Assembly (NCBI RefSeq): GCF_037975245.1
Contig: NC_092571.1
Coordinates: 10,673,917 to 10,737,916 of the forward strand
DNA length: 64,000 nucleotides
Direction of reading: 5' to 3'
DNA from: Apostichopus japonicus
Lineage: Eukaryota > Echinodermata > Holothuroidea > Aspidochirotida > Stichopodidae
Each line of letters begins with the position of its first letter. The stretch's first letter is position 1. The notes below the pieces were generated by a model that searched no databases, was not told the origin of the DNA, and saw nothing but the letters and a program-made list of their open reading frames with translations. Below, piece by piece: positions 13,901 to 41,804 of the stretch. The translations under genes were made by a program, and so were the position numbers.

Positions 13901-16900
13901 TCTTAATTAACCTGTGGTTGCTCAAAGAAATGAATGACCACTGTTTATATGGTATTAGTGATGTACAGTACTGATTTCGCTTAACTCCCGTTAAAATTTG
14001 TTAAAAGGAAAATAACCGAATTTCCACGTTTTGTCATCGAAATTCCCCGATTTTTATCGAAATTCCCCGAATTTTAACGATTGGTTATTTCAGTCATTTC
14101 CTTCGTGGAATTTTCAACGATACGTTGAAATTCTTTTTTAAACGAAATAGAAGGTCAATGTGTGGTTACGCGAAACGTCGGAAAACGAGCAACTTCGTTT
14201 ATTAGTATTGATTAGACTTTGGAACAGTCGTTTGAAGGCAGGAATTTTCTCAAGAGCATTCCTGTACTTGCATGAGTAGTGACACTCAAAGAAACATGTA
14301 GTGAAACTGACGGGGGACGTTTTCTAACTGTGATCCCAAACACAGTGACATAAGTCTTAACTTCGCCAGGACGTAAGAGAGAATGCAGTCAAAGCTATGT
14401 ACCACGAGGCACCCTTCCAGATAAATTAGAGTGCTGTTTAACCATTTAAATAACAATGAATGGACATATAAACTTGGTTTACTTGCAGATTACGAAAAAT
14501 AGTTATTTTTTAGAGATGTAAATTTGGTTTTTTATTAGAGTTGGAGTATGAAACTTTGTTTCTGAGCGAAAACATGTAACTTGAAGCAAAATAAAGATGC
14601 CCCGCCCATTCTGCGAGGACGCTTCCATTTTTCAAAAAGGCGTTTTCTCTTTTTATTTTTTCTATTTTGTTTACTTTTAAACATGAAAATTATTTTAAAA
14701 TATGTAAAGAACTTAGTAATGTACTGCAAACTATCTATAAAAACAAAAAACGATGTTTTAGGCATGAATAATGTGTTAAATATAACTAAAGTAGTAGGCC
14801 AATAGTCATGAGCTCATGATGATAGTGTTGTCAATTCGTTTTCTCAGTTTATATTTGCGACATATCACCCGTGTACATCGATCAATGGCATGGTGAAAAC
14901 CCCGTGTGAAAATATGTTGACCCCAACAGACGCAAATGGCCATTCTAGAAAGTACCGTCATAACATTAACAACACAAGGCCAGTTTGCTCTCTCAGGTCC
15001 GCACGTGTACAGCCATTTTTTCACACATGATATTATGCTGTGCATGCATTGCGGGCGCGATTGCGGCAAACATAAAAAAAAATGAATGAAAATGAAAAAC
15101 TTACGATATTTTTTCACAAATATTGATGCTTAGATAAGTGCTTCCTCACAATCAACGAGCCGCCCTAAAATTCGCTCCGCTTACGGAAAAACTTCTATAT
15201 ATATCAGGTGCGTATCCAGGGGGGGGCGTTGGGGGCGCGCGCCCCCCGGGTAAGAAAAAGAGGAGAGAAAAAAAAGAGAAGAAAAAAGGGAAAAGGAGGG
15301 GGAAAGAAAAGGAGGAGAGAAAGGATGGGAAAAGAAGAAGAAAAAAGAGAGAAAAAGGAGAAAGGGAGGGAGTAGAAGATAGCTAAGACTTCGGGAAGAG
15401 AAAGAGGAACAGTCATAGTTAAAGCGCTGATCCCTATTATATACACAGGGTAGCCAGTGACAGATCAAGGATTACGGAGGGGGTGTGCGCCTCACCCTAC
15501 CCCTTACACCAACAACTCCATTTTTGACGTTTTTTCCCCCTCTCTCACTAATGTATATAAATACTATATATGGTCTATCATAACGCGCGTGTGTGTATGG
15601 ACGCCTTAAACAATTGTACAATTGTGCTATATGGAACCAACTGTGGCTGGTCTTGAACTCGACGGGGTCGTCGGGAACATGACGCATTTCGGGAAGGGGG
15701 CGACCGCCCCCCCCCCGAGCAAATTTTCTTTATGACATCGCTAGTAATTTCAAAATAGACAATGCTTAGGTGCAACTTACAAGGCCTGGGAAGTGTCATT
15801 TCCAGCGATCTGGGAGGCATTTTCGGCCAAAATTTTTCTTGTACGCTTCGCGCCAACTCATGGTGGCGCTTCGCTTAGATAGTTTGCATACAGGCTTCGC
15901 CCCTCCCTTGGCAATTACTCGCTACACGCCTGTTCGAATTTGTAAAGCAAAGAGCAGATATAACATCATATCAGTGAGCATTGAAATGCCTGTTCCACGA
16001 TGAACAGCCTCAAAACTGTCTATGTGTGTAGTCGAAGGCGTAGCCCAATTGGATTTGGGGCTGTAACGACTTGCCCGAAAAAAAAGCCAACATTTTTCGC
16101 GCGCTTTGCGCGCGTTCAACATATCGATGCCAATATCATTGACATTGCATGGCATCGTGTACCTTACGGTCCGTGAAAGTAGCACAGTATACCGCCGGAT
16201 GCTAATGTAAACAACCAAATGTCTTATCATGTAGATGGAGAAAAAGCATACAGATCCATTTATGTCAAACTCTCTTTTACAGTAGTAATGTCGGCCAATC
16301 TTAGAACTTTATTTTAATTACCAAGGAGATAATTTTTAAGCTATTCATTGCTATTTATTTTTCTCTCAGTAGGTGCCCGAAAAAAATGGGAAAAAAATTG
16401 GTTGCGGGGCGGGGGGTGGGGGCTGCAGCCCCGCCTCCTACGGGACCTACGCCTATGTGTGCAGTGTTCGGTTTCGATATACCTGATATCGGAAATATCT
16501 GCTATTTTTCATTTCCTTCAACGAAGTTTTATATAGCCATAATAAGAGGTTTTAATATTTGTACACCAATAAATTAACTGTGTCTGAATTTTCCAAAATT
16601 TCCTCACCAACATTCTTCATCATACTTTCCTCTACTCGTGCAATTTGTACCTGTCTATTAGGGGTTGAAGGAGGTTTTTCCCTATTGGTTGTCCATAGAT
16701 TGAATTTTGTGCAACATTATGGGTATGTTTTGAAGTGATTTTTATTCACGAGAAATGTGAATTTTCAAATTCTCAACAAATAATGGGCTTAAAACCTTGA
16801 AAAGTGGGGCTTTCGGATATTGTGGGCCGTGACGTAGAATCGCCTACAAAAGCAATGATCCATAGGACATGCAATGAGGTCGAACATGATGTGTGACTGG

Positions 16901-19216
16901 TGACAATCTTCAAAAAGGTTATGGATGGAAAAAAAACTTTTGGGAAATACTTGGTTCTCAGGCAAAAGTGTACATTTGGTTGGTCAATTTCAAGCCCGAG
17001 AAGTGTCATTTCCGGTGATCTGGGGGGTATCAAAACCAGAAATTTTCTTGTACGCTCCGCGCCAACCGATGGTGGCGCTCCGCTTAGATAGTAATTCGCG
17101 CCCCCCGGGTTAGAAAATCCTGGATACGCGCCTGTATATAACAAATGGAAAAACCCGAGTTTTTACACACATAATTCCCACTGACATTGGTCACAGAACA
17201 TAAGTAGGTCATTGACATTCGAACTTGGCAACTTGCCCAAGTTCATCGCACCATGGGAACGACACAACACATTGAACATGATGTTATATTCTCCCGCCAT
17301 CTGGACGCCGAGTGTAATATGCAAATTATGAATGGTACTGCGCAGCGTGGTTAAATCTTAACCTATTGCGACACAAATTTTGGGAGGCTGTTGTTTGAAG
17401 TAACTTTTGTATCAAATGTAAGGTACTGTATCATGTATGTGACACAAGAGAAAGAAAATGAAATCGGAGGCTGCTCGAACCAGTTTCAGCTTGATTTTTA
17501 CAACCCATCGCACAACACGTGCGTGCGTAATTTGTTTTCTTAACATGACTTTTAATGAGTAAGTAGGAAAGGTGTTTAAGTTTGCTAATTTATGCGAGTT
17601 TTTGTTTAAAATCTTGTGATTGATAGACAAATATATTGTTTTTTTTCTTCAAAAGTTACGACGTTGCCGAAGGCCGAGTTATATAAATTCAGTGATCTGA
17701 ACTTCTGAAGACCACGAATACTGATCATGTGTGTTAGGCAATTATTATTACACGAAAGGTTCGCAATATTATTGGGCCTAATTAGTAATTAACATACATT
17801 GATCGTTGTCTTGCTGCCTGAATTGCTACCAGCTGGAAAAGAAAACCTTAATTATTGTACTCATAACGTCCTATTTTCATTAAAAGTCCAGTAACGGTGC
17901 GTCGAAAAAGCCGCAATCGGGAAACGGCGTTTAACCGACCGGCAGGCGATACGGTGAAACGGTTAGCGAAATATCTGATAGGTCACACCCTTATTTAAAC
18001 ACACACAACAAAACGCCCTTATTCAATGAAAATATACTGAAAACCATATCGCAAAAACACAAAATCGCTTATAACTCGAAAACGGAAGGAGACATCGACT
18101 TTTGTCGGCTGTATAGGGATTTCCTAAACCGAATTTTGATGCGCTCTATCCACCTGTGTCATTTACGAGCTTCTCTGACGTAAGCTGCAGTACGTAATTT
18201 CTCTGTACCAGTTCCGCGAAATTTATTTACGCAGTAAACATCGTTCATTATGTTTTCTTTCACAACGAATATTCAAAGTTGTGCTCCACACGCTTCACAG
18301 ATATTATGTCGTTCATTTTCAATTCTACTTTAAAATTACATTTTCGAACGATGCATTGCATGCCTTATCAAGCATTCCTGATTAGTAAAACTAAGGAAGG
18401 ATATTCAAATATATATTATTTTCATTTGACATGATTTTATGAGTTGTTCCACTTGAAAAACGTTGATAAAACTGAAAAACAAAACATTTACTTCTCATGT
18501 GACGCATACCGGGAGACTCATAAAAACTTCCCCTACTCATTAAAATAAACTTATACATGCCGTTAGGCCAGTTGAAAGCCGTCAGGCCAGTTGAAAGCCC
18601 TCCCCAGTAATGTTTGATCAGCTCTTCCCAATATACAATACTCAAATAAGCAATGAAAATATATTCATTTTCCACAGAAATCTACCCAACGTGGGCCCCA
18701 AGTCACTGCTTTATTTTCTTAGTAGTCATGGAAACAATTGTTTGCAACTCTCTTGCTGTCCAGGTGTTTTCAAGTTTTATTAATAGCACGACTTTTGATT
18801 GGTTCATTCAAGATAAACTTTCTATCCCTGCTGGATTGTTCTACTTATATATATATATGAATGAATATTTGGTTTTCAATTAACTAAGTAACAGATAACA
18901 TCCATTCCATTACGAACAGTAGGGGTAAAATAATGTTTGCTTCTAGAGGCAGCCAGCCATGAAGGTTCTGCAGTGCTAAACCCCCCACGAAGATAAATAC
19001 TATGCTAATTAACATAAGGTAGGCGTGAATTTGACAAAGCCAAGTTTAAGATTGGACTAAACCTTTCAAAAAAGTTTGGCGGTGGGGATATCCAGGGTAG
19101 GGAATGCACATGTAAGCAGCATACTACAGGTGGCCCAGACCCAGGCTGCGACCTTACCAGGGCAGTCCATCTGCTTTCGCGGGTAACTTACAGTAACAGG
19201 TTAGGGGGAAAATCAC

Positions 19217-19249
<33 letters not shown>

Positions 19250-22200
19250 GTGCATTGATGTCGGGGAGATTTTTTGGACGGAATGCGCTCTCAGAAAAGT
19301 TTGAAAATGAGTGCGGTTCTGTAGTAAACGGTACTGTAGTACGTCAAGTAACAGGAATTTATTGGGAATAAAGATCTCTTTAATATCCAGCTACGACTGT
19401 TTCATTGTTGATATTTTTTTCTTGTTTTTTTCTGACACTGCGTTCCTTGGTGAGTTAACTTAAACTTATCCTAGTTTAATACTAGCCTATAACTTAAGAG
19501 TCATAGAATGTGCTTGTTACGATCGACCAAGACTAGTTTTTATTATCCTAGCCAAATCATTTTTCAAACAACTAGTACAGAACTTACTCCGTCTTATATA
19601 CAATCACACTTTTGCAACGTTTGTAATATTCCTCGGCAACTTCTGGTAGAGTCTGAAAACGGCTGTAGTTACACTAAGGATTCTACACAAGTCACAACCT
19701 TGATATGTCTAGAATTGCCTTTGCGGTTTTTGATCGCGATAACTTTCGTGGAAATTTCGTTGAAACTTTGTTGACAACCGTGCCCGCAGTAGTCTAAATC
19801 TTGTCAACGAAATTAACCGATTTTCAACTTTTTTTATCGATTTTTAACTTTTGTTATCGATCGTTGATTTTTTTTCAACGGGAGTTAAGCGAAATCAGTA
19901 CTGTACAGGTTTTGCAAAGTGATAAGAGAATGATGACAATTTGTCATTTCATCTATTTTGCAGTATTACTGTAAGTTTAAAGTACAATGCAATCTGAATT
20001 TAACATTTACAAAACTGTAAAACTAACAACCTCCTACTTATATATGATAATGATGTCACTCACTGCTACTGTATTGGTTGTATAATAACCACCATGGACA
20101 TAAACATACTGTAATGAGGCCTAATTCCCATTTACTTATAGGATGATGATGTTACTCACTGCTTCTGTATTGGTTGTATCATAACTACTGTACCATGGAC
20201 AGAACATAATGTAATCAGGCCTAATTCCCATTTACAGTACTTATAGGATGATGATGTCACTCACAGCTACTGTATTGGTTGAATAATGACCACCTTGGAC
20301 ATAACATAACTGTAATCAGGCCTAATTCCCATTTACTTATGGGATGATGATGTCACTCACTGCTACTGCATTGGTTGTATAATGACCACCATGGACATAA
20401 ACATACTGTTATCAGGCCTAATTCCCATTTACTTATAGGATGATGATGTCACTCACTGCTACTGTATTGGTTGTATAATGACCACCTAGGACATAACATA
20501 CTGTAATCAGGCTTAATTCCCATTTACTTATAGGATGATGATGTCACTCACTGCTACTGTATTGGTTGTATAATAACTATCATGGACATAAACATACAGT
20601 AATCAGACCTAATTTCCATTTACTTATACTGTAGGATGATGATGTCACTCACTGCTACTGTATTGGTTGTATAATAACCACCATGGACATAACATACTGT
20701 AATCAGGCCTAATTACCATTTACTTATAGGATGATGATGTCACTCACTGCTACTGTATTGGTTGTATAATAACTACCATGGACATAACATACTGTAATCA
20801 GGCCTAATTACCATTTACTTATAGGATGATGTCACTCACTGCTACTGTATTGGTTGTATAATAACTACCATGGACATAACATACTGTACTGTAATCAGGC
20901 CTCATTCCCATTTACTTATAGGATGATGATGTCACTCACTGCTACTATATTGGTTGTATAATAACCACCAGGGACATAACATACTGTAATCAGGCCTAAT
21001 TCCCATTTACTTATAGGATGATGATGTCACTCACTGCTACTGTATTGGTTGTATAAAAACTACCATGGACATAACATACTGTAATCAGGCCTAATTCCCA
21101 TTTACTGTACTTATAGGATGATGATGTCACTTCACTGCTACTATGGTTGTATAATAACTACCATGGACATAACATACTGTAATCAGGCCTAATTACCATT
21201 TACTTATAGGATGATGATGTCACTCACTGCTACTGCATTGGTTGTATAATGACCACCTTGGACATAACATACTGTAATCAGGCCTAAATCCCACCTACTT
21301 AAAGGATGATGTCACTCACTGCTACTGCATTGGTTGTATAATAACTACCATGGAGATAACATACTGATACCAGGCCTAATTACCATTTACTTATAGGATG
21401 ATGATGTCACTCACTGCTACTGCATTGGTTGTATACAGTAATAACTACCATGGACATAACATACTGTAATCAGGCCTAATTCCCATTTACTTATAGGATG
21501 ATGATGTCACTCACTGCTACTGTAATTCCAAAACTTACTGGTTTGGATATTTACGAGTGACGAGCTTACCTGTCTCCTCACAACCTTAGCACCTCATTCT
21601 ACCGTGCCTATAAAGTCCTGGTAAATAAATAACACTGTGCGCCCTCTATGACCGGACCCCCCTTCCGGTCCCTCCTCCTTTCTCATGAGACCATTCCTAA
21701 AGAGTGGCCTCACGGACACGGGAGTGGGGGTGGCAAGGTCTGGCCACCCCCAACGACTCCCGTCGAATTAACTTCCCAAAGTGAACCCCTAACAAAAATT
21801 CACTGACGCCTTCCTAGCAGGGGGGAGTGTAACCCTCCCCGGCGCAGCGGGAAGGGGGGACACTCTCCTGAACCCTGCAGGCGGAACTACCCCTTAAACT
21901 AACAAGGAGCCTAAAGGTTTACGGTCCGCCACTTGTTACCTTTAGACCAACTTAGGTGAGAACGTAAGTGGAAGACTATGTACGCAAACGCATACGAAAA
22001 CACCTAGGTACACTCACCGATAGACCTAGTCGATGGCTCTCTGGTGGAAGGTGGATCTGTCTATCTGGTGTGAAGCTCGGAGTCGTGAGTCAAGTCGAGC
22101 GACCGCTCCTCCGTCCGGCTGTGTCCCACCACCCTCTCGGGGGAGGGAGGCGGGAATGGAGACAGGTAAGCTCGTCACTCGTAAATATCCAAACCAGTAA

Positions 22201-25200
22201 GTTTTGGAATATTTACTTCGCTCCTCGCTTACCTGTCTCCTCACAACCTTAGCACCGAGTGGCACTGCCCGATGGTGGGAGGCCCGAGGGGTGGGACCTG
22301 TTACCCACCGGACCTCGCATCACCGCGCTACCAAATGCCGCTTCGGCGTGTAAAGTGTCGGTCAAGTAGCAGGCGACGAACGTAGTTGGAGTTCTCCACG
22401 CTGCTGCTTTGAGTATGTCCTCTATCGGGATGCCGGCGAATAGGGCTGTAGAGGCCGCGACCCCTCTGACGTCGTGAGCCCTTGGTCGGGAGGTCCCCGA
22501 TGTGAACGGGCGTATGATCTCTACTAGCCACCTGGATAGAGTGTCTTTGGAGGCCGCTGCGTAGGGTGGCCGTGGTATGATGAAGAGAGAAGTTGATTGT
22601 CTTAACTTTTCTGTCTTGCTCAGGTACCACTTCAGTGCCCTGACTGGACACCATCGTTTGTCCTCGGCTACTGATGACATGGTCTTAATTTCCGGGATGA
22701 AAATGTCTCCTGGCAAGAAGGTCAAGGTCTGGTTCTTTGCAATAAATGACGGGTCTGGAACCATCCTTACCCCGTGGCCCTCAAATCTGATGTGATTCTG
22801 CTTGGTGGATAGGGCGTGGAGGCAACTCCTCCTTCTTGCTGACGCAACTGCGACGAGGAAGAGTGTCTTTTTTGTGAGGGCAGCCAGGGAGGCGTTAGCC
22901 ATTGGTTCGTATGGTGGTCCTGCCAGGGCATGTAACACTGTTGAGAGTCCCCAGGAGGGGGCCAGCCGTCTGATCTGTGGGCGACGGTTCGCCATGCCTT
23001 TGACGAGTTGTGCAATGTACGGGTTATTGCTCAGTGTGGAGCCATCTGGGAAGCCCTGGTGGATGGCGGCGATGGCCGACCTGTAATTCCTGATAGTGGA
23101 GACTTGTTTCCCTTCTCCAAAGAGTGAGAGGAGGAAGTCGGCTATCTGTGTCACAGAGGCAGCAGGCAGCAGTATCTGTCTCGGTCGGCACCATTGGTCG
23201 AACTTCCGCAGACGGGAATCGTAAGTCGCTGCGGTCGTTCCCCTTCTAGCGTCGGCTGCCATCGCGGCAGCTGCTTCTGAAAAGCCTCTCTGTCGTAGGG
23301 AAGACCGGACAGCCTCCAGGCAACTAATTGTAACCCCTTGATGTCTGGGTGGGAGAGAGTTCCCTGTCTCTGGGACAGTAGGTGGGGCTTGTCCGGTAGA
23401 CTCACTGGGACGTCCATGAGGAGCTGAGGGATCTCGGCGAACCAGGGTCTGCGAGGCCAGAACGGGGCTATTAGTGTGAACCTGCCCTTGGAGTTCTGAA
23501 TTTTTCTGAGGACTTGTCCGATCATACACAGCGGCGGGAAGATATACGCCTCCATGCGGTCCCAAGAGAGGGACATTGCGTCCGTGTGGTAGGCCAGGGG
23601 GTGGAATCGTCTGGAACAGAAGGTCTGGAGTTTGTTGTTCTTGTGTGTTGCGAACAGGTCTATCGTGGGCTTGCCGAAGATCGAAAAGATTCTGTCGCAG
23701 GTCTCCTGTTCCAGAGACCATTCGTTGGGGTCTATGTGCCCCCTGGATAAGGCGTCCGCCATCACGTTGAGCTTGCCCGCGATGTGGGAAGCCCGTAGGA
23801 TCGTACCGGAGTCCTCGGCCGCTGTTATCACCTCCCACGCGAGTCGGCACAGTCTCTCTGAGTGGGTGCCCCCCTGCCGATTGATGTAGGCCACCACTGT
23901 CGTGTTGTCGGTGAAGATTGTGGTTATCGTTCCCTGTACGTGGTCGTTGAAAACTTCCAGGGCTCTTTTGACCGCCATCATCTCTAGGATGTTGATGTGG
24001 AGAGATCTTTCTGTTTGGGACCACGTCCCCCATGCTGTGCGATTGCTCCAATGAGCTCCCCATCCGGACAGTGACGCGTCCGTCGTTATCGATGTCATTG
24101 GTAGCTGTATCGCAAAGGGTACCCCTGAACTCCAGTTGTTTGGGTCGAGCCACCATCGAAAGTGTTGGGTGACCTCCTCTGACCTGTAGATGAGCGTTGT
24201 TTTGTCTGGGTCTGTAGGGTCTGCGGACCTCAGGAGGTGCAGTTGCAGGGGTCGCATGTGTAGCCTGCACAGTCTCACTATATCGACGAGGCTGGCCATG
24301 AGTCCCAGGGCCCGGAGCCATGTCCCCGTTGGTGACCCCCGGTGTACCAAGATCTGTTGTGTGGTCGCCTTGACTGCCGCGACTCTTTCTTCTGAGGGTC
24401 GGGCTACCCCGGTGGTGAAGTCCAGTATGGCCCCGAGGAACTGGATCGTCTGGGAGGGCGATAGTCGTGATTTCTTCTGGTTCACGATCCAGCCCAGTTC
24501 TTGAAGGGTCTGGAGCGTTTTGTGGACGTTGTTGGTTGCTTCCGATAGGCTGTTCCCTACTACCAACCAGTCGTCTAGATATACGTAGAGGGTGACTCCT
24601 CTTTTTCTGAGGTAGGCGACTACTGCTCCCGCGACTCTCGTGAAGGTTCTGGGAGCCGTGGCTAGGCCGAATGGGAGCGCCCGGAACTGGTAATCTTGTT
24701 CTGCGTACCGGAACGCTAGGAATCGTCGGTGTTCTCTGTGTATCAATATGTGCAGGTAAGCGTCCCGTAAGTCTACGGTCGCCGCCCACATGCCCTTTCT
24801 GAGTAGGGGTAATATTAAGTTTAAGGTCTCCATACGGAAGTGTTTTGGTCTGATGTGTTTTGTGTTCAGGGGTTTTAGGTTTAGGATGGGACGCCAGGAG
24901 CCGTCCCGTTTTTTGGTCAGAAAGAAGGAGGACCGGAAGAGCGGTCCCGTCTCTTCCGGAACTCTTGTAATTGCCTGCTTGGCCAGCAGGGCCAGAATTT
25001 CCCCTTCTAGGGCTAAGCGTTTGACGGGGTCCGTGGGTGTGAGTGTCTGCCTTCCTCCGCCCCCGAAAGGTGGGCTGGAGGAGAATTCTATTTTGTACCC
25101 GTGTCTGACTGTGTCCAACACCCACTTGTCCCCGCCAATAAATTCCCATTGCTGGGAGAAGTTTGATAGTCTCCCCCCCACCGGCGGAATGGCCGCGGTG

Positions 25201-28200
25201 AGGTGGGCACCCCTAGGGCCGGGCGGCGAACGCTGGTCGGATGGAGGAGCGGTCACTGTCCCGTCTGGTCGACGTCGAGCCTCTGCCTCCTCTGGGGGCC
25301 CAGGGGCGGGTCGGACGGAAGGCTGCCCCCCGGCTTCTGCCTCTGAGAGCTCCTCTGCTCATAGATTTGGCGGGTGCTGCTCTCGTTCCTCTAGGTGCTC
25401 TGCTCTCCCTCGGGCGGAAGGGTCTGGTTCTCTGGGTAGGTGGGGGTCGGAATTCTGATTTGGCCAGAGTCTCCCTTCGGGCCACCTCTTCCTGCAGTTT
25501 CTTTTGGAAGCAGCCCGCGAAAAGGTCTTCCCCGAGGATTGGTAGTTCCAACATTCTGTCCTTAGCCTCCGTCGAAGGCCAATGGATGGCGGAGACGATG
25601 TTTTGTCTACGGGCCTTTACGGACCTGGTAGCGATCCTTGCAAATTGATCGTACGCGAGCCTGACGAGGGGGCCCAGCAGCAGGAGGAGCTGGCCCGCTT
25701 CGTCCCTGGATACTTGGCTGCTGTCCTCAGGTAGTTGTTGGTGGTGTCGCATGAGGACTTCGGCTGATAGCATTAGTACCGATGCGAACTTCATGCCCGA
25801 ACGGGCTGCCATGTCTACCTCTACCAAGAGCTCTTCTAGCTTCCTCTGGTCCGGGGTCTTGAACACGTGTGTGGATGAGGCCCCTTGTTCGGCTTTTAGC
25901 CTCTCCTTGGCCTCCTGGGGGATGGTTGGAGATCTAAATAGATCCCTCCAGGCCTCGTCAGGTACCCTGACCGCTCTATCTGCCCTGGCCGGGAAGGCCG
26001 TCCACTTGGTCTTGTTGGCAATGGCCTCAAATCTGTCATAGCAGGTTGCGTCTACTGGTACGGTAGTTTTGGGCTTATATGACGCTTCGCCGGTCGCTGT
26101 CAATTTTGATACCCGGCCCGCCTTCTGCGGTTGCGTCTCGGGTTCCTCGAACCCCAGGTGTCGTCTAAATATGTCTGCCGCCCGTGTTATTAGCTCCTGT
26201 GGGAGGGCTCCTCCTGTCACGGGCGCCTCCTCCGGTTCGTAATTGTGGCCAAAGCTGTCCTCCATAGGATCGTAGTCGAGAGGATCTGGATCTATGGGCT
26301 CCCCTTCGTCCTCCAAGCCGGAAAGATTCACCGACGCTCTGCAATCCAGAGCGTCTGGGTCCGGGGCCGGTTGCGGGGTCATGGTCGGTACGGGGCTGGT
26401 AGGGCCCGGTGCCACGTCGGCTACCGTGGACGTCCTTTGCTCCAGCAGGGGCCGTAGCAGGCCGGTGAGTTTAGATAGCCAAGCTGGCTCCTCTTCCTGG
26501 TGCCGTCTCGGGGACCGGCGCCTCCTCTTGGATCTTCTGTATCCATCGTCGGAAGAGTCCGAGGACTCGTCGGAGATTGGAGAGTATCTCTTCCTCTCCC
26601 TCCGTCTTGGGGATTTTGTATGCGACCCCGATCTCTCCCTTCTGGGTCGGCGGGAGGACTCTCTCTCCCTGCTTTCTCGGGCCGGGATCTCCGTCGGAAC
26701 CCGCCTCTCCGGCTCCCTGTCCGGCTCCCTGGAACGGGACCGGCTCCGTCTCCGCGTCCCCTCGGTTACTCTCTCTTTTGGACCCGAGCCTCCCACGGCC
26801 GGCAGGCCGCGCTCTGTGGGTTTGTTTAGCTGCGGCCCGGACTGAGACGGAGTCTCCAGTCCGGCCGAGCTGTGCCTCTGCTTCGGAGGTCTTTTCTTGG
26901 CAGGAGCCTTGCCTTTGCTCCTGCCCTTCCCTCTGGCCGTAACTGATCCGGACGTAGCCGGGGCCGTTAGGGGAATTCTTTCTCTTTCTCTTTCCTCTCT
27001 CTCTACCTCTTTCTCTCCTTCGGCCCTCTCCTGGCCACTCTCCTCCACCTCTCTCTCTACTACTCCCTCCTCCTCTCTATCTCCCGTTATTCCTGGAACC
27101 TCCGGCGCCCCGATTGCGCTCGGGATCGAGTCCAGCCTTCCCTGGAGCTTGCTACGTAAGCCCTCAAGCCACAGGTCGATGTCCTGCCACTGAGCTGGTG
27201 TAAACTTAATACACACCAGGCAGGGGTCTCGTCGAGTGCAGGATCTGCATTTCGGACAAAGGTCGTGTTCGTCCCAGGCTCTGCCTGGGCGAAACATAGA
27301 GCAGTTGATGCACTTCAATGGATTGCGTGACATGCTGAATAACTGGATTAAGGAAGATTACTTCTTAGTGATAAATGAACAACAATAGAAGCTTAACGTA
27401 AGAAGGGAGAACTAGGGAGGGAATTAGGCTTAGGTGGAGCGTAGCGTAACCTAGCAACGGTAAACAAGGTAACGCTACGGGGTGGCCTAACAAGAAAATG
27501 CAAGCTGAAACGAAAATGAGAGAGCGAGAAATACATACAAAAAGAGTGAAATATGAATCCCCAAAAGGGGGACGAGAGAAAACTAATTGGGGGGAAGCCT
27601 CTTTGCTTTGTTGCGAGTAAACAAGCTATGAAAACACACTAACAACAACACGCCTCAGCGTGGGGAGGAATAGGGCGGGAACCTAGGCAGTTTCGCGGAA
27701 CTGCTAACCCCGCCGCAAACCAACCCGAGGAGGAACGCACTACGAAAACAGTCCCCAAAACCCTCCCTTTTTGACAAAAAGGATACTTATCGGTCAGGAA
27801 AGGACTGTCAAACTTCTAAAGATCCGAAGCTAAAAAACTTCCGGCGATCGTCGAAGAAAACCAAGACAAATTTCCAAGGAAACTATCCACAAGAAAAATA
27901 TGCGTGTAGGCACTTGGAATGGTAGAATGAAAAAGGAGGAGGGACCGGAAGGGGGGTCCGGTCATAGAGGGCGCACAGTGTTATTTATTTACCAGGACTT
28001 TATAGGCACGGTAGAATGAGGTGCTAAGGTTGTGAGGAGACAGGTAAGCGAGGAGCGAAGTAAATTTGGTTGTATAATAACCACCATGGACATAACATAC
28101 TGTACTGTAATCAGGCCTCATTCCCATTTACTTATAGGATGATGATGTCACTCACTGCTAATGTATTGGTTGTATAATAACTACCATGGACATAACATAC

Positions 28201-31200
28201 TGTAATCAGGCCTAATTCCCATTTACTTATAGGATGATGATGTCACTCACTGCTACTGTATTGGTTGTATAATAACCACCATGGACATAACATACTGTAC
28301 TGTAATCAGGCCTAATTCCCATTTACTTATAGGATGATGATGTCACTCTCTGCTACTGTATTGGTTGTATAATAACCACCATGGAAATTAACATACTGTA
28401 ATTGGGCTTATATAATTCCCATTTACTTATAGGATGATGATGTAATTCACTGCTACTATATTGGTTGAATAATGACCACCTTGGACATAACATACTTGTA
28501 CTGTAATCAGGCTTAATTTCCATTTACTTATAGGATGATGATGTCACTCTCTGCTACTGTATTGGTTGTATAATAACCACCATGGACATAACCTACTGTA
28601 ATCAGGCCTAATTCCCATTTACTTATAGGATGATGATGTCACTCTCTGCTACTGTATTGGTTGTATAATAACCACCATGGAAATTAACATACTGTAATCA
28701 GGCTTATATAATTCCCATTTACTTATAGGATGATGATGTCACTTCACTGCTACTATATTGGTTGAATAATGACCACCTTGGACATAACATACTGTAATCA
28801 GACCTAATTTCCATTTACTTATAGGATGATGATGTCACTCACTGCTACTGTATTGGTTGTATAATAACTACCATGGACATACAGTAACATACTGTAATCA
28901 GGCCTAATTCCCATTTACTGTACTTATAGGATGATGATGTCACTTCACTGCTACTATATTGGTTGTATAATAACTACCATGGACATAACATACTGTAATC
29001 AGGCCTAATTTCCATTTACTTGTAGGATGATGATGTCACTCACTGCTACTGTATTGGTTGTATAATAACCACCTTGGACATAACATACTGTAATCAGGCC
29101 TAATTACCATTTACTTATAGGATGATGATGTCACTCACTGCTACTGTATTGGTTGTATAATAACCACCTTGGACATAACATACTGTAATCAGGCCTAATT
29201 ACCATTTACTTATAGGATGATGATGTCACTCACTGCTAATGTATATATTGGTTGTATAATAACTACCATGGACATAACATACTGTAATCAGGCCTAATTA
29301 CCATTTACTTATAGGATGATGATGTCACTCACTGCTAATGTATATATTGGTTGTATAATAACTACCATGGACATAACATACTGTAATCAGGCCTAATTCC
29401 CATTTACTTATAGGATGATGATGTCACTCACTGCTACTGTATTGGTTGTATAATAACTACCATGGACATAACATACTGTAATCAGGCCTAATTTCCATTT
29501 ACTTATAGGATGATGATGTCACTCACTGCTAATGTATATATTGGTTGTATAATAACTACCATGGACATAACATACTGTAATCAGGCCTAATTCCCATTTA
29601 CTTATAGGATGATGATGTCACTCACTGCTACTGTATTGGTTGTATAATAACCACCATGGACATAACATACTGTACTGTAATCAGGCCTAATTCCCATTTA
29701 CTTATAGGATGATGATGTCACTCTCTGCTACTGTATTGGTTGTATAATAACCACCATGGAAATTAACATACTGTAATTGGGCTTATATAATTCCCATTTA
29801 CTTATAGGATGATGATGTAATTCACTGCTACTATATTGCTTGAATAATGACCACCTTGGACATAACATACTTGTACTGTAATCAGGCTTAATTTCCATTT
29901 ACTTATAGGATGATGATGTCACTCTCTGCTACTGTATTGGTTGTATAATAACCACCATGGACATAACATACTGTAATCAGGCCTAATTCCCATTTACTTA
30001 TAGGATGATGATGTCACTCTCTGCTACTGTATTGGTTGTATAATAACCACCATGGAAATTAACATACTGTAATCAGGCTTATATAATTCCCATTTACTTA
30101 TAGGATGATGATGTCACTTCACTGCTACTATATTGGTTGAATAATGACCACCTTGGACATAACATACTGTAATCAGACCTAATTTCCATTTACTTATAGG
30201 ATGATGATGTCACTCTCTGCTACTGTATTGGTTGTATAATAACCACCATGGAAATTAACATACTGTAATCAGGCTTATATAATTCCCATTTACTTATAGG
30301 ATGATGATGTAATTCACTGCTACTATATTGCTTGAATAATGACCACCTTGGACATAACATACTGTAATCAGACCTTATTTCCATTTACTTATAGGATGAT
30401 GATGTCACTCACTGCTACTGTATTGGTTGTATAAAAACTACCATGGACATAACATACTGTAATCAGGCCTAATTCCCATTTACTGTACTTATAGGATGAT
30501 GATGTCACTTCACTGCTACTATGGTTGTATAATAACTACCATGGACATAACATACTGTAATCAGGCCTAATTTCCATTTACTTATAGGATGATGATGTCA
30601 CTTCACTGCTACTGCATTGGTTGTATAATGACCACCTTGACATAACATACTGTAATCAGGCTTAATTCCCATATGATGATGATGTCACTCACTGCTACTG
30701 TATTGGTTGTATAATAACCACCTTGGACATAACATACTGTAATCAGGCCTAATTTCCATTTACTTATAGGATGATGATGTCACTCACTGCTACTGTATTG
30801 GTTGTATAATAACTACCTTGGACATAACATACAGTAATCAGACCTAATTCCCATTTACTTATAGGATGATGATGTCACTCACTGCTACTGCATTGGTTGT
30901 ATAATAACTACCATGGACATAAACATACTGTATCAGGCCTCATTCCCATTTACTTATAGGATGATGATGTCACTCACTGCTACTGCATTGGTTGTATAAT
31001 AACTACCATGGACATAACATACTGTATCAGGCCTCATTCCCATTTACTTATAGGATGATGATGTCACTCACTGCTACTGCATTGGTTGTATAATAACTAC
31101 CATGGACATAACATACTGTAATCAGGCCTAATTCCCATTTACTTATAGGATGATGATGTCACTCACTGCTACTGTATTGGTTGTATAATAACTACCATGG

Positions 31201-34200
31201 ACATAACATACTGTAATCAGGCCTCATTCCCATTTACTTATAGGATGATGATGTCACTCACTGCTACTGCATTGGTTGAATAATAACTACCATGGACATA
31301 ACATACTGTAATCAGGTGCGTATCCAGGGGGGGGGGCGTTGGGGGCGCGCGCCCCCCGGGTAAGATAAAGAGGAGAGGAAAAAAAAGAGAAGAAAAAGGG
31401 AAAAAAAGAGGGGAAAAGAGGAGGAGGAGAGGAAAGAAGGGAAACGAAAAAGAAGAAAGAGAGAAGAAGGAGAAAAGGAGGGAGTAAAAGAAAAACGCGA
31501 AGACACCGGGTAGAGAAAGAGGAACAGTGACATCATTACAGCGCTGAAGGGTAGCCAGTGACGGATCAATGATTTCGTAAAAGTGTGCCTCACCCTACCC
31601 CCTTACACCGACAACTCCATTTTTTTGACGTTTCCATTTTCCTCTCTCACTAATGATCTATATATATACTATATATGGTCTATCATAACGCGTGTGTAGA
31701 ATTGTGCTATGAAACCAACTGTGGCTGGTCTCCAACTCGACCGTGTCGTCGGGGAACATGACGCATTTTGGGATGGGGGCGACCGCCCCCCCCCCCCTTC
31801 AGCATTTTTTTAAATGATATCGCTAAGTAATTTCAAAATAGAAAGTGCTTAGATGCAACTTACAAGGCATGGGAAGTGTCATTTCCAGCGATCTGGGAGA
31901 CATTTTCGGCCAAAATTTGCTTGTATGCTTCGCGCTAACAAATGGTCCTGGGTAGTGCCATTTCCAGCGATCTGGGAGGCATTTTCGGCCAACATTTTCT
32001 TGTACGCTTCGCGCCAACCTATATATGGTGGCGCTACGCTTAGATAATTTGCCTACAGGCTTCGCCTCTCCCTTGGCAAATTCCTCGCTACGCGCCTGTT
32101 CGAATTTGTAACGCAAACAGCAGATATAACATCATATCAGTGAGCATGAAAAGGCGTTCCAGGATGAAAATCCTCAAAACTGTCCGACTTGCCTGAAAAA
32201 ACAAGCAAAAATTTTCGCGCGCAAAGCGCACGTTCAACGTGTCGATGTCAATATCATATAAGCAAGCATCGGTTATTACATCGCATGCTATCATGTACCG
32301 TATGGTCCGTTCAAATTGCGCAGTATACCGCGGGATGCTAATGTAAACAACGACATGTCTCATGTAGATGTATAAAAAGCATGGAGGTCCAATTATGTCA
32401 AAAGTTTCTTTTACATTAGTAATGGCGAATTAGGGGCTGCACCCCCGCCGCGCAGTGGTGGAGCGTCCATATGGTCAGGGGGGCGGATGCCCCCCCTGAC
32501 GGACTCAAATGGATTGCTGGCGCCTTTTTCAGCTCTTTACCACTTTTTACTTATTCGTGATTATTGACTTTTTAATTGCGCTCTCATCTACTTATTGACA
32601 TTTGTCACATTTTGTTGGTGTAATATGGCGATGACACCCTATTCTTCGTTTATCTGCAAATTAGCCAGGCCCTGAAAGGGTCATTTCCGGCGATCTAGGG
32701 AGCATCTTTACTCAAAAATTGTCTGTGCGCTACGCGCCAACCAGTGGTGGCGCTCCGCTTAGATAGTGTCAAAAGCGCCCCTACAGACCATTCTCGCCTC
32801 TCCTGACCAATATCCCTAGCTCGCCACTGCCGCCGCGCCTCCTACGCCTATGTGTGTAGTGTTCGGTTTCGGAAATATCTGCTATTTTTTCATTTCCTTC
32901 AACCAAGTTTTATAATAGCCGTTATAAGAGGTTTCAATATTTCTACACCAATAAATTAACTGTGTCTGGATTTTAGAAAATTTCTGACCAACATTCTGCA
33001 TCACACTTCCCTCTACTCGTGCAATTTTGACCGGTCTGTTAGGGCTTGAAGGAAGTTTATCTATATTGGTTGTCCATAGATGAAATTTTGTACAACATTA
33101 TGGGTAAGTTTTGAAGTGAGTTTATTCACGAGAAATGTGAATTTTCAAATTCTGAACAAATATGGGGCTTAAAACCTTGAAAAGTGGGGCTGACGGGTAT
33201 TGTGGGCCGCGACGTAGAATCACCTACAAAAGCAAAGACCCACAGGAGATGCAATCAGGTCGAACATGATGTGTGCCGGTTTGACAATCTTCAAAAAGGT
33301 TATGGATGGGAAAAAAACTATTAGGAAATACTTGGTTCTCAGGCAAAAAGTGTATATCTGGTTGGTCATTTCAAGCCATAGAAGTGCCGTTTCCGGTGAT
33401 CTGGGGGGTTTCAAAACAAGAAATTTTCTTGTACGCTGCGCGCCAACCGATGGTGGCGCTCCGCTTAGATAGTAATTCGCGCCCCTCGGGTTTGAAAATC
33501 CTGGATACGCGCCTGGTAATCAGGCCTAATTCCCATTTACTTATTAGGATGATGATGTCACTCACAGCTACTGTATTGGTTGTATAATAACTATCATGGA
33601 CATAACATACTGTAATCAGGCCTAATTCCCATTTACTTATAGGATGATGATGTCACTCTCTGCTACTGTATTGGTTGTATAATAACCACCATGGACATAA
33701 CATACTGTACTGTAATCAGACCTAATTTCCATTTATTTATAGGATGATGATGTCACTCACTGCTACTGCATTGGTTGAATAATAACCACCTTGGACATAA
33801 CATACCGTAATCAGGCTTAATTCCCATTTACTTATAGGATGATGATGTCACTTCACTGCTACTGCATTGGTTGTATAATGACCACCATGGACATAACATA
33901 CTGTAATCAGGCCTAATTCCCACCTACTTAAAGGATGATAATGTCACTCACTGCTACTGCATTGGTTGTATAATGACCACCTTGGACATAACATACTGTA
34001 ATCAGGCCTAATTCCCATTTACTTATAGGATGATGATGTCACTCACTGCTACTGCATTGGTTTTATAATGACCACCTTGGACATAACATACGGTCATCAG
34101 GCTTAATTTCCATTTACTTATAGGATGATGATGTTACTCACTACTACTGTATTGGTTGTATAATAACCATCATGGACATTAACATACTGTAATCAGGCTG

Positions 34201-37200
34201 TATTCCCATTTACTTTTACTGTAGGATGATGATTAGTGACGATTTGCAGTAATACTGTACAGATTATACAGGGCCTAAATTTGGTACTGTCACTTAAATC
34301 ATGTGGGTTCTTTCACTGATGTTTCTTAACTGACTTCTCATCTGTTCCAGTTCATAATGTCAACTAGCAGAACATTTATCCAGAGGGCCTTCTCTTGGGC
34401 TGGCAAACAGTAAGAAACACTGGTATTTAGCAAGTCAATAGTCAGAATGTCCAGGCACAATGATGCAACTGACTGGGTTTAACTAATTGACATTTGTTTC
34501 ATATCTTTAGCTCAGTGTTCAGTGTGTGTATGTTAATTTGACCAGGGTTACAAAATGCCATGCTACTATATAGCAATATAAAAAAAAAAAAACATTACGT
34601 TGCACTTACGTTCACCATATCTAAACTTGAAGATCAGTACTGTGTTTGGGTTTAAGGATTGAAAGTTGTCTCTGTCAACTTTTTTGTCACCCTCGAGGAT
34701 GATTTCTTCAATCTGAAATAAGACATTCAAACTGTGAATAACTCACAACTTCATTGATTGTACATGTAAATAGGCTATTGTTTCCATTAAGCATACTATA
34801 CAACATTTCAGGTCATGATCACATTGAGCTATTAAATTTTACATCATAATTACAGTCTGGTTCAATGCATCCAGCTTCAAAAAATTACATCTCTTGCAAA
34901 GTTTGGTTAAAATTGTTGCAATTTTATTGGGAAAAATAAAAATACATAACTACATAACTACATAAATAAATGAAAACACAGAAGGCTAATAGTGATTCCT
35001 TGCCTTATAAGTTTTTAAATTGTATGGAATGACCTGATTGATAGAGCAACTGAGGAAAATGTGTCCTATTTAAGTTAAGCACCAGAACATCAGCAAAGAG
35101 TTCCAGACACAACTTGACCCTTGGCAAATTATGTGATATCCTTCTGAGAGTTGTTGACAAGTGGCAGTCATTAATGGAAGAGCAAAACCCTCTCAGCCAC
35201 TTAAAAAAGCAACTTTCAAATCGTGGGGACAGTTTGTGACATAGAAAAGCCATTCATCAATGAAATGGTGCTGAAAGTTTAAACAATGATCTGAGGGGGA
35301 TACCAATTCTCCTAATTTCATTTTGGCACTTTCCCAGGATTTGCAGATATTTTGAGTGATGAATGTTTCCTCTGAAATGGGGGGGGGGGGGGTAGACGAC
35401 TAGTTTTTTACATCAATTTCAGATTTCATTGTAGCTAAATAGCAGAATAGGTAAACTGAAAACTTGGACATACTAAAATGAAACAAAAAGCTAGCAGTAG
35501 TGGTAGGCATATAATCCACCTGATGGGAAGTTATTCTGATCTTTTAAATTATTCCCAAAGCTTAAGTTGACAGTTTCAAGCGTTTTAAAGATATATTCAG
35601 TAAAATACCTCAGTAAGAGACACTCTGGTAAGGATGTCTGTAACATTCGAGCAAATATGTAACGGTCATCTGAGATGACCAAAATCAGCTTTGGCTGTTG
35701 TCTTGACAACGACCAGTCATTAACATAAAGTTCAGATTTCATTGTAGCTACTGTAGTGTTCAACCGATTAACCTAATCGGAATCGGAATCGGTACGAATA
35801 TTGCATAATCGGTACATAATTGGAATCGGTAAAAATTACGTGGAATACCAGTTATGTCATACCGATTATTAAAAAACATATGGAAGGTGAAAATATCATT
35901 ATTCAAAAACATATGGAAGTTGAAAATATCAACTGATGAATTAGGTTTGTTCTTTTACTACGAAATATTAAAAAAAGGCACCCCCTATACGTCTTTCACA
36001 ATGTAATTTCATCAAATTAGGCTGCCGTGGTCGCCGATTTTGCTTCCCTCGTGGTTATTGACTTTTTCATATTTCTTGGCACAGTAAGCATAGCAGCAAT
36101 AGCAATTTCGCAAATTCAGGAATGTGCTGGACAGGGTAGGAAATAAGCGGGGGCGACGGACGATTCGCCCTCGCAAGTGCTAAAAAGCCCTCCTACTGTA
36201 AAGCACAATTACGAGTGCGAAAAAGAAAAATGAAATATAACAATATCGCCCTCGTTATATCAGGTGTCTGTGTAAAATTAATTGTGACATGCGTTTGCTT
36301 TAGCTAGGAATTGCAGTTGCATCGCGAATCGCGCAAACAGTTTTCTCACATCCCGCATCAAATTTGAAGCAGTGCGAGAGGGTCGCGCACAATCACCGGG
36401 AACTTCCCGTGGTAAATTACGGCCTGCAGTACCAGCGAAAATAACCTAAAATCCTCACAAATCTCCGACCACATGATAGCCTTACTTCACACTAAATCAA
36501 CTGCATGGAAATATAAACTTGACATCTGTTTATTCGCTCTAGTTGTGTCGCAAATAAAAACTAAAAATATCCACGGAAACTGCAATCTAACGTAATCTAG
36601 TGTGGTTGTTAGCCTAACAACCACACTAAGTCAATGGGAAATGTAGCCTAACCATCGGTTTGCAAAAAAAAAAAAAAAATTGCGTAGCTTAGTTTACAAC
36701 TTTCAATTTGCTGGAAATCGGCATTTGTTTGGAAGGTAATGTAAGTGATATGTCTTATAGAGGGAATGTTATATTTTATATTGGAGTAGTTTCTAGTTGT
36801 TATTATTTCTTTACATCGATCTGGTATTACATTTTAGAGTAATTTTAAACAAGTTACGATGGTACAATTTGCTTTTCAGTTTGATTGGCCTAAGCTTACA
36901 CATTCTAATAGAACCTGAATGGAGTTATATAGGTAACGCATAGGTATGTTTAACTTCAAGTTCGTAACATTTCTATTTGTTCATAAACGGTATCATACTG
37001 AAAATAAGTACAAAATTATGTCGGAATGAAGGCAATATGTCATTAAAATTTACACTTTGGTAAAGATTGAAGATGGATGGTTTGTCTGAGATACTTTTTG
37101 AGATGGATATTTTGAGTAACTATTCTTAGCCCATATCAAGCCATTAACAGGTGACATTCACGTCGAGGTGGTTAGGCCATTCGCTTAGCACAGTGCTGAC

Positions 37201-38403: not shown

Positions 38404-41400
38404 TCTAAAAATAAACGAGAAACATACAGGTATATCAAATGTTCACCCATGTTTCCTCTGTTGATAGTATCATTGTGTCTGTGCTGCAGTTTATATGTAT
38501 ATGAACAGTACGCTCCATTAGAGGGCCTGTAGGTAGTCTAATGTTGACGCAACAGATATTTGGCCAAAATATTTGGCCGCTTACATTATTATGCCATCGT
38601 TTAGTCTTTGCAATTTGACTAACTGTTCAAAATTCAATGTTAACATGAACACTTTCTACATTTTTACTGAAGAATGTTAGCTACATAAAACTCTGCTATG
38701 TATTATGAACACTCATTGGATATGACAGATTTTTACAACACAGATCATAACCCCCCAAAACTAACAATTTTCCAAATGGGAGGGGGACACCCCCTCCCCT
38801 TAGACCCCTCCCCCATTTCAGTCACCACTTCCAGATCCGTCGGCAAATCAAATTTGACTTGAAATGTGCACCAGATTGCATCTAAGGACGTTTCAAAACT
38901 AAAAATTTTCCAAATGGGAGGGGGACACCCCCTCCCCTTAGACCCCTCCCCCATTTCAGTCACCGCTTCCAGATCCATCGGCAAATCAAATTCTCCACCC
39001 CCCCCAACAAAAAACCTTCGCTACGCCCCTGAATGTTAAGTTTAAAGGTTTTCACTGAAAGTTTTCAAATCGAAGAGAAAATGTCCCATCATATTTTGTT
39101 AACACCGCACAGCACATGAGAACTTTCCATAGGGCTTTTACTTCTTTATATCAAAAAGGCAAACCCTTTTACACAGTTCCCATTGAGCTTGGTCACTGAC
39201 AATTTACTAGTTTTACAATTTAAAGTTAATCGGTATTGCCCGAAAATAATGGCCACGCAAACAGGCATTTCGATGGCATTGTAAAAGAAAAGTGATACAC
39301 ATGCACTGAGAAATGTAATACTTTTTTTAGTATATATACCCTACAGTGACTGTGAATAATATTGAAAGCCTCTAGGACAATTTACTTTAGATCATATCAA
39401 TTATTCAGTCAATATTGTCAAGCTTTAAAACTTCATTTTTTCTTCAATTTCGCCAAGGTAGTACTTTCATCATATAAAAATATACCATGGGCTATTGTGA
39501 ATATTTGTAACATTGATGTTATACTGTAGTTGTGCAGGCTACCTACAGAGCAAACAGGCCTACTGGCAAACTGGCCTTTCAGTCTTGAGCCTTGGCAGTA
39601 ATTACTACAGTAGAACACCCTGCAACTCAAAAGTAACACAGGAAATACCTGGCTTCACAGCGAGCAACGTTGATACGGTAAATATTCGGAAAGTTTTCCA
39701 GAACAACACAACATGTGTATGTCATTATTCCATACGAAGTACTGAAGATCTTTATTCTGGAAAAAATGCTAATTAAAAGTCCAATCAATTCACCATGGAG
39801 TGGCTCAGCTAAATTAGTAGCCAAAGTTTGATACAGTCCAAGATGCACAAGTTTAGCACTTGAGAAAGACACAATGCATGTTTATTTCATACATTTCACA
39901 TTGTATTAAAGATTGAAAGCATGTACCAAAGGGGTTATATGTTGACGCACTTGGTGACTTTATGACAATTTACATTAAGGCCTAGGCCGCCTAGCTTTAT
40001 ATATCTATAGGTACTTGTACCATACCACACTTAATGTACTGTACGTCTGCCTGAAAAGTCATTTACAAAAATAGTCCTACCGTTGATCTAATGGAGTGAC
40101 TTATGTTTAGTCATCATTGTTGTTATGCTTTGATGTTGAAGAGGAAGAAATAAACTACATGGGGGTAAAGCAAGTGTTCACAGAGCCTGACAGAGAAAGC
40201 TGGCAGATGGGTTGGGAGCACTGTTGCATCTTCTAGCTCCAAATCTAAACATCACGGTGGCAAGAACTTAATGTGCTATGATAGCCATCAGCTACAGTAT
40301 CCTACTGTAGGTGGGTAGGTTGTGTCAATTGAAAACTACTATATATCTATATATAGATGCTGTAGCAGTAATGGAATGTGACAAATTTATTGTGTAAGTT
40401 AGTGGAGCAATGAATTGTTGTACGCCGCCTTTTTAGGCAAAAGCAAATTATGGGCTAAGATGCTTAGTACATGTATGCTAAGCTGACATTCCACTTTCAG
40501 GAAAGACCTTCCATGATTTTATGAGTATTAAAGGGTATGAAGACTTGCGCACAAAGAAACTTCTGATGCCCGTAACCAGGCTGACCTAGTTTCGAATGAG
40601 GTAAACAGAAGTGGTAGACACCAGGTTCCTTTATCAGAGGTGGCACACGGTTTGGGGCGAGTCTTCAATGCCTTTAAGGTGAAACGTTGACATATAGACC
40701 TGTGATTGCAGGGATATAGATTGTTGGGCTCCTTTTGTCACAATGAAAACTTTTTTATACATGCTTAATTATTGTGAATATTTGTGATGGCTTGGCGGCT
40801 ACCAATGATAAACAAAGGCCTATTTGCATGGTCCTAATCAGCCATGTGCTTGACACTAGCTTCACTAAGCTTGCTAACCAATGCACTGCATATATTTTGT
40901 TGTTTGGATAGCACTAAACTTGGGGTAAGTTTATTAAAAACATGAGATGTGGTTGTTCCAGTCTAGAAAACATAGGCCTAAGCCAAGTATACTAATAAAA
41001 AGCAATTGTAGAATACCCCAAAACTCACGCTTCTTGGGAACGACAATATATTGTTTATTATTGGGAATCCTTGTCATAATTTGTAAGATTCAAGAGTTGC
41101 TGCGAATGCTGTAATTAAGCACTAAATATGTTAATGATAAGCTTACTACTTTCATCAATTATTGACTACGGATGAATAATACCTGTAGGTGAGTAGCCTA
41201 TACTAGCCTAGGCTCAATGAAAACTAGGGTCTTGAGAGTCCCTAAACAAGCATTGAAAGTATTGTACAGGCCAAGCTTGTTGGCCACTGACAAGCCTACG
41301 TGATGTGTCTATGATTTTTGTACCTGAATTTTACTTGAATCCGACTAGTCCTGAACTGGGGCGGCGTGCACTACTCTTATTCAGATATTTTACCTATTTA

Positions 41401-41629: not shown

Positions 41630-41804
41630 CCATGGAGACCCACCTGAAGTTAGCAGGATATTCTGCTGGCAGGATATTTGGTTGAAGCAGGGTTGCCAGT
41701 TTTCCGGATACATTGTCGGTCAAATTGAGACCAAAAAAAGACGCCAAATTTGTATTTAATATATTTTTAGGTAATTGAACTTTTGTGTATGCATACATGA
41801 CCGA

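Follow-up and report, generated by a model that had tools for sequence, protein, structure and literature searches.

Structure of the locus

The stretch analysed here, which we call the window, is 64,000 nucleotides long and comes from the holothurian Apostichopus japonicus (contig NC_092571.1, here C11, positions 10673917-10737916, in an assembly of 671.6 Mb and 35 contigs). It holds three blocks of a 95-bp satellite in which certain monomers carry an additional five bases at a TA, giving TACTGTA or TACAGTA, and beside this array lies a 5.9-kb element with CAG ends next to TA (Table 1). The two heptamers are a single site on opposite strands and are written below as TACWGTA, where W is A or T. 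The original prediction took the insertions to be footprints left by excising Tc1/mariner transposons; we examine them in the satellite, in a second copy of the locus and in a sample of the genome.

The array was parsed into 60 monomers, partial ones included, of which 54 are near full length; their mean pairwise difference is 6.4%. Two insertions interrupt it, one of them a DIRS-like retroelement whose reverse transcriptase and RNase H domains lie above the Pfam cut-off and whose integrase-type domain lies below it. The array's edges resemble degenerate monomers no more than shuffled sequence does, an Rfam scan at gathering thresholds listed no hit, and an exact 21-base piece of the monomer is absent from the viral and prokaryote contigs.

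Insertion alleles in the 95-bp array

Alignment of the window's array to the monomer consensus gave seven distinct 5-bp insertion alleles, all of the form TA to TAC[A/T]GTA; in an eighth placement, at 34217, the aligner gives the insertion as TTTAC, which can be read as the same form with one adjacent base changed. At the footprint sites most monomers carry plain TA, and the direction of change is readable there. Numbering positions within the consensus (24, 37, 44, 55, 60, 86 and 92) and taking the arrays of both copies of the locus together, the unambiguous alleles are 37 CAG, 44 CTG, 44 CAG, 55 CAG, 86 CTG, 86 CAG and 92 CTG (four CAG, three CTG). As positions 44 and 86 each show both forms, at least two events must have taken place at each. 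Duplication is possible for two further alleles, 60 CTG and 24 CTG: the doubled TACTGTACTGTA at position 60 could have arisen by tandem duplication of TACTG, and the position 24 allele, found in the second copy's array (L029), is possibly CTA plus a TA duplication.

Monomers with footprints differ little from those without. Apart from an inserted TACAG, monomer 21397 is identical to monomer 31054 (95 of 95 sites), and monomer 28825, which has two footprints, differs from footprint-free 20730 at one of 95 sites; each remaining footprint monomer differs from its nearest footprint-free monomer at seven or fewer of 95 sites (seven for 34124). Exact 5-bp insertions at TA are the pattern in the array, contrary to the graded substitutions that the original prediction named as grounds for refutation. 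All eight insertions listed in the original prediction are present (20186, 20233, 20627, 20882, 21103, 21434, 28880 and 34217), and others were found at 28098, 28293, 28916, 29668, 30481 and 33703. The one described as two in a row, at 20882, is ambiguous, a tandem duplication of TACTG being equally possible. The idea that the satellite records independent events is borne out by the several TA sites and both forms, with the qualification that not every insertion is a separate event: those at 21103, 28916 and 30481 share the allele and the same neighbouring variants.

The array also has insertions of 1 bp, TATA-type insertions of 4 bp and insertions of the 6-bp TACTTG. TATA is inserted at TA at window positions 29242, 29341 and 29535, representing two distinct insertions and possibly another scar type, while TACTTG in the window and TACCTG in the second copy's array (L029:1923) are 6-bp insertions; the canonical scar explains neither class. 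The insertions at 28408 and 28493 belong to these other lengths (TATA at TA or 6-bp) and may likewise be other scars.

Comparison of two copies of the locus

With one monomer as query, two more arrays were located on the contig: a second at 7.30 Mb, and a short third one at 10.84 Mb. The 7.30-Mb array has the same flanks as the window's on both sides, and the 25.6 kb around it form a colinear copy of window 1-41639, 3.4 Mb away. This second copy is without window stretch 3048-9375 (a second DIRS-like element) and without the 5.9-kb element, and it carries two insertions of its own. Five non-satellite segments provide 14,847-14,858 aligned bases with 280-299 substitutions, depending on gap costs, or 1.9-2.0% divergence (0.8-2.7% per segment).

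At all 11 five-bp insertions or deletions (indels) in these segments, one copy has TA where the other has TACWGTA, a result on which three gap schemes agree; six footprints are in the window and five in the second copy, seven of them CTG and four CAG. With different segment edges the count is 10 of 10, the omitted site being at the edge of a variable stretch. The chance that a random 5-bp insertion fits the pattern is, by rough estimate, about 2e-4. The 11 indels of 5 bp compare with 6-7 of 3 bp, 7-8 of 4 bp and 2-5 of 6 bp, and correspond to one footprint per 25-27 substitutions between the copies; one surviving insertion of a CAG-ended element is present in the compared stretch. Among 23 window heptamers compared with the second copy, 17 are common and identical, and six are plain TA there. 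The arrays also hold private events: in their first 1.6 kb of alignment, the footprints at 20233, 20882 and 21434 are private to the window and one at window 21201 is private to the second copy. Two further alleles occur only in the second copy's array, a CTG at position 24 (ambiguous) and a CAG at position 44.

Table 1. Footprints, satellite blocks and inserted elements in the window
Feature	Position	Strand	Remark
plain TA in window	2319..2320	+	second copy TACAGTA
footprint TACTGTA	2940..2946	+	second copy plain TA
plain TA in window	10532..10533	+	second copy TACAGTA
plain TA in window	11114..11115	+	second copy TACTGTA
footprint TACTGTA	13264..13270	+	second copy plain TA
CAG-ended element	13966..19903	not assigned	27-bp perfect terminal inverted repeats, TA duplication
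95-bp satellite block 1	20041..21524	+	footprint alleles 20186 (CTG), 20233 (CAG), 20627 (CTG), 21103 (CTG), 21434 (CAG)
CTG allele, block 1	20882	+	possible tandem duplication
DIRS-like retroelement interrupting 95-bp array	21525..28065	-	absent from second copy's array
95-bp satellite block 2	28066..31316	+	footprints 28880 (CAG), 28916 and 30481 (CTG, one haplotype copied)
duplicated TACTG, block 2	28098/28293/29668	+	
dispersed-repeat-family insertion interrupting array	31317..33514	not assigned	ends near GCGTATCCAGG; absent from second copy's array
95-bp satellite block 3	33515..34240	+	footprint 34217 common to second copy; duplicated TACTG at 33703
plain TA in window	35401..35402	+	second copy TACTGTA; edge of length-variable stretch
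footprint TACTGTA	35749..35755	+	second copy plain TA
footprint TACTGTA	36194..36200	+	second copy plain TA
footprint TACTGTA	39522..39528	+	second copy plain TA
footprint TACAGTA	39606..39612	+	second copy plain TA
plain TA in window	40089..40090	+	second copy TACAGTA

Two equal-scoring matches on C11, at 6.718 and 10.113 Mb, are offset by almost the same distance (3.394 Mb vs 3.385 Mb), and the stretches around them align over 8,381 bp at 1.26% divergence; the doubling is therefore evident at two points separated by about 0.57 Mb. This second stretch of the doubled block has two five-bp indels, one a TACTG footprint and the other a G-run change. A 1.5-kb piece of another sampled locus (L016) has itself as its only full-length match, so the assembly is not simply diploid. 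Matches to PF01498 and PF13358 at 4.22, 7.34 and 10.92 Mb on C11 hint that parts of the block exist in three copies, and stretches at about 4.2, 6.7-7.3 and 10.1-10.9 Mb are doubled and possibly tripled. The second copy may be a segmental duplication or the outcome of haplotypes assembled side by side; the footprint argument is independent of which it is.

The CAG-ended element and its family

The element at 13966-19903, which carries a nested insertion at about 15203-17140, ends in CAG beside TA as originally noted, and the second copy runs straight through one TA where it sits, that is, an empty site. Its left 100 bases have 162 first-look candidates in the genome and its right 100 bases 217; 40 of each, the element itself included, were scored and are 97-100% and 98-100% identical, respectively. 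We sampled ten plus-strand relatives, whose ends pair up at lengths of 3.8-4.4 kb, and 10 of 10 have TA-CAG...CTG-TA junctions with unlike flanks. These junctions, together with the high identity, indicate a young, repeated family. If a member of this family were excised by cuts staggered by 3 nt, the outcome would be precisely the observed scar.

Footprints and family insertions share a lean towards [A/C]TA[G/T] flanks, seen on 19 of 22 sides of the 11 footprints (P = 3e-4) and on 16 of 22 sides of 11 insertions of the family (P = 0.02), where the baseline is 0.487. The lean is weak for heptamers of 18 other sampled loci (85 of 150 sides) and absent from control palindromes (146 of 294). This common lean is a weak link between the footprints and the family and does not prove that the family is their source. 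No other CAG-ended element with good inverted repeats was found in the window, save an inverted pair of 182-bp satellites, and a 20-base end of the element has no exact match in the viral contigs. Its terminal repeat may resemble that of Drosophila pogo.

A genome search found Tc1-like open reading frames (ORFs; 45 matches to PF13358 and 25 to PF01498) and 33 ORFs matching DDE_1. Among the listed matches to PF01498, PF13358 and PF03184, for which all first-look candidates were scored, none lies inside 13966-19903, the element's own ORFs not having been scanned. Nor were TA-flanked CAG terminal repeats found at five transposase loci (L035-L038 and L060), the surroundings of most matches not having been fetched. 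Some of these loci have features of their own. On C9, at 37.37-37.46 Mb, units are repeated about 5.7 kb apart, most with a 384-amino-acid Tc1-like frame matching PF01498 and PF13358. At L035 (C18:9847500-9855000) a similar Tc1-like ORF lies near ORFs that, as an impression only, resemble Rep/helicase of a small DNA virus. L037 and L038 have ORFs of 643 and 669 amino acids and are 98% alike across at least 5.9 kb; the L037 ORF combines DDE_1, a Tc5-type helix-turn-helix and a PHD finger, and TA-flanked inverted repeats were not found in either stretch.

Heptamer counts and chance expectation

The window contains 128 heptamers. The monomer consensus carries two TACTGTA, and most of the 128 are consequently intrinsic copies. 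Once the tandem arrays and the element's own ends are removed, 30 heptamers remain, compared with 6.5, 9.5 and 10.2 in shuffles preserving 2-, 3- and 4-mers; under each scheme none of 300 shuffles reaches 30. Among TA-NNN-TA classes in the window, CAG/CTG has by far the strongest TA-TA association (30 sites, 9.8 expected, P = 3.6e-9), followed by AAA (P = 4e-4). In a genome sample of 20 stretches totalling 200 kb (L009-L028), CAG/CTG is again first (159 sites vs 66.9 expected, P = 2.5e-29) and GCC/GGC second (52 sites vs 23.4, P = 4.7e-9), with equal enrichment by ratio. The words of the second class, TAGCCTA/TAGGCTA, are thus themselves over-represented in this sample (16.9-23.4 expected). 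Masking of tandem repeats leaves 129 heptamers in the sample against 46.5 expected, the maximum of 100 shuffles being 65; without its two richest stretches it has 75 against 35.1, and 15 of 18 loci exceed their own expectation.

Genome-wide there are 361,456 TACWGTA, compared with 208,554 of the reversed pattern ATGWCAT and 75,078 of TAGWCTA, a TA-bounded palindrome of the same composition. Since these two controls differ, the size of the genome-wide excess depends on which is chosen. Enrichment over composition, on which the original prediction depends, holds in the window and the sample, and its genome-wide extent is control-dependent. The mouse genome is about four times larger than this genome. 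Over 300,000 TACWGTA are reported for mouse in the available part of the source (PMC4378557).

Particular loci contribute to the raw count. A pentanucleotide microsatellite of TACAG/TACAT units (L059, C1:39250-39950) inflates it. Two 10-kb stretches, L013 and L016, hold 23 and 31 dispersed TACWGTA; GTAC words are generally raised in them, with many GTAC/TGTACA words. Given this microsatellite and the unlike flanks of the heptamers in L013 and L016 (see below), we rejected the raw genome-wide heptamer count as a footprint count.

Excision as the probable source of the insertions

What is observed directly (exact 5-bp insertions at TA in CAG and CTG forms, private as well as common events, and a CAG-ended family beside the array) is very probably explained by germline excision of cut-and-paste DNA transposons with CAG ends and a TA target duplication. 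A transposon copy would insert at TA to give TA-CAG...CTG-TA; transposase would then cut it out with a 3-nt stagger, and end joining would close the gap, leaving one set of terminal bases, CAG or CTG, between two TAs. These scars would have multiplied as the satellite was copied, and again when the block holding the whole locus was doubled or two haplotypes were assembled side by side; new ones would have continued to arise in both copies afterwards. In unique sequence we infer the direction of change, and the family of 13966-19903 or a relative of it would be the source. The proportion of footprints to substitutions and to surviving insertions would be compatible with elements whose departure far outpaces the divergence of the two copies.

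Several results weigh against this explanation, or at least against its generality. We found no five-bp insertion in 6,008 aligned bases of the 182-bp satellites (two arrays in opposite orientation, at window 41804-43856 and 47955-51932), and no TACWG insertion in repeat copies or in a 145-bp array inside the window. The third 95-bp array (L030, 479 aligned bases) also has no 5-bp insertion, and its two 5-bp deletions are of another kind. Dispersed-repeat pairs in the sample (226 pairs, 36,778 columns, 3,656 mismatches) yielded four 5-bp gaps, none of them TACWG, where the rate from the two-copy comparison would predict many. Their TA density is lower (56 per kb vs 82 in the two-copy segments) and the longest pairs belong to one family; these factors alone do not account for the zero, and dispersed repeats were set aside as independent recorders. 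Even within the doubled block the scar rate is uneven (11 in 14.8 kb vs 1 in 8.4 kb). Together with the empty satellites and repeats, this counts against a uniform process. Heptamer flanks at L013 and L016, the two richest loci of the sample, are mostly G...C, the reverse of what the proven footprints show (47 of 108 sides). Sleeping Beauty-like elements are also described, in the available parts of the sources, as leaving 0-3 or 0-4 bp (PMC7913693, PMC9976928), and the uniformity of our 5-bp class is partly ascertainment, as the comparison counted clean 3-nt scars alone and irregular footprints would be missed. Finally, no transposase has been tied to the family of 13966-19903, which leaves a Tc1/mariner source conjectural. 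Of the original prediction, then, the footprints stand on the 11 of 11 five-bp indels and the exact array insertions, and the neighbouring element proves to be a TA insertion of a young CAG-ended family; assignment to Tc1/mariner and an even spread of the scars over the genome are conjectural.

Two explanations would dispense with excision. Template switching or slippage between TA microhomologies could copy CTGTA from the monomer's own TACTGTA, making a transposon unnecessary. The monomer has two such words, the doubled TACTGTACTGTA alleles amount to tandem TACTG duplications, the position 24 allele of L029 is explicable as CTA plus a TA duplication, and TATA insertions at TA are found as well. 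Yet the monomer's own word is CTG, whereas four of the seven unambiguous array alleles are CAG, and the 11 two-copy events all lie outside the satellite (no search for local templates at those sites was made). Slippage or template switching was accordingly discarded as the origin of the private unique-sequence sites, and as a general account we regard it as barely credible. The heptamer excess might alternatively reflect composition or a motif, such as cryptic TACAG-type pentanucleotide repeats or a regulatory word. The microsatellite on C1, the GTAC-rich stretches L013 and L016 with their G...C flanks, and the equal enrichment by ratio of TAGCCTA (52 vs 16.9) speak for such an effect, which probably explains part of the genome-wide count. 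A composition effect is unable to yield private exact 5-bp insertions, however, and the excess persists at the 18 other sampled loci, so that as a replacement for excision it is very unlikely.

A third alternative keeps the footprints as real and changes their source: they may stem from families to which the 5.9-kb element does not belong, such as a Tc1-like or pogo-like one now in few copies. The long Tc1-like and DDE_1 ORFs in the genome make this plausible. Against it, the family of CAG-ended copies of 3.8-4.4 kb is both young and repeated and shows the same target lean, and the five transposase loci fetched, a minority of the matches, gave no TA-flanked CAG terminal repeats. We lean only slightly away from this alternative.

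Relation to known systems and significance

The comparisons that follow rest on the available portions of the cited papers. Sleeping Beauty, a Tc1/mariner element, leaves TAC[A/T]GTA, a 5-bp insertion (PMC4378557, PMC3432063), and the scars described here are alike in length, target and use of both middle bases. Those footprints are experimental, from cultured cells and tumours, whereas the present ones are natural, inherited, and copied in a satellite and a doubled block. Natural inherited footprints of the Tc1/mariner-related Stowaway elements in Triticeae genes have, as here, served as a record of loss (PMC1925063); they vary (1-4 bp of the terminal repeats) and concern one intron site, in contrast to a uniform 5-bp class (11 of 11) at many sites. 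Excisions have likewise been read by comparing two related genomes in rice, where eight of 94 DNA-transposon excisions were 'perfect', with the target duplication only, and the rest had deletions or filler (PMC4423477). Such messy events would be unrecognisable in our comparison, and the contrast is thus partly one of ascertainment. Searches of the open-licence literature, with most subscription papers outside their reach, listed experimental TACWGTA scars and natural plant footprints; among the papers listed we found none in which a satellite or a doubled block serves as a record of excision.

In the C. elegans germline, such breaks are reportedly mended through homologous recombination, with the element restored (PMC13148408, available part); the clean inherited footprints seen here point to a different outcome. 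We consider evenly balanced the broader proposition that excision footprints of a TA/CAG transposon group are a leading short-indel class between the copies, that the germline often closes excision breaks by clean end joining and not by templated repair, and that scars at this locus exceed surviving insertions of the same type by a factor of about ten (11 vs one). Once an element is lost, its excision is usually difficult to detect. Near-identical monomers together with a doubled block make it possible to count and orient individual excisions and to compare them with substitutions, which may give access to the rate of excision, the fidelity of end joining and the choice of target in a natural germline.

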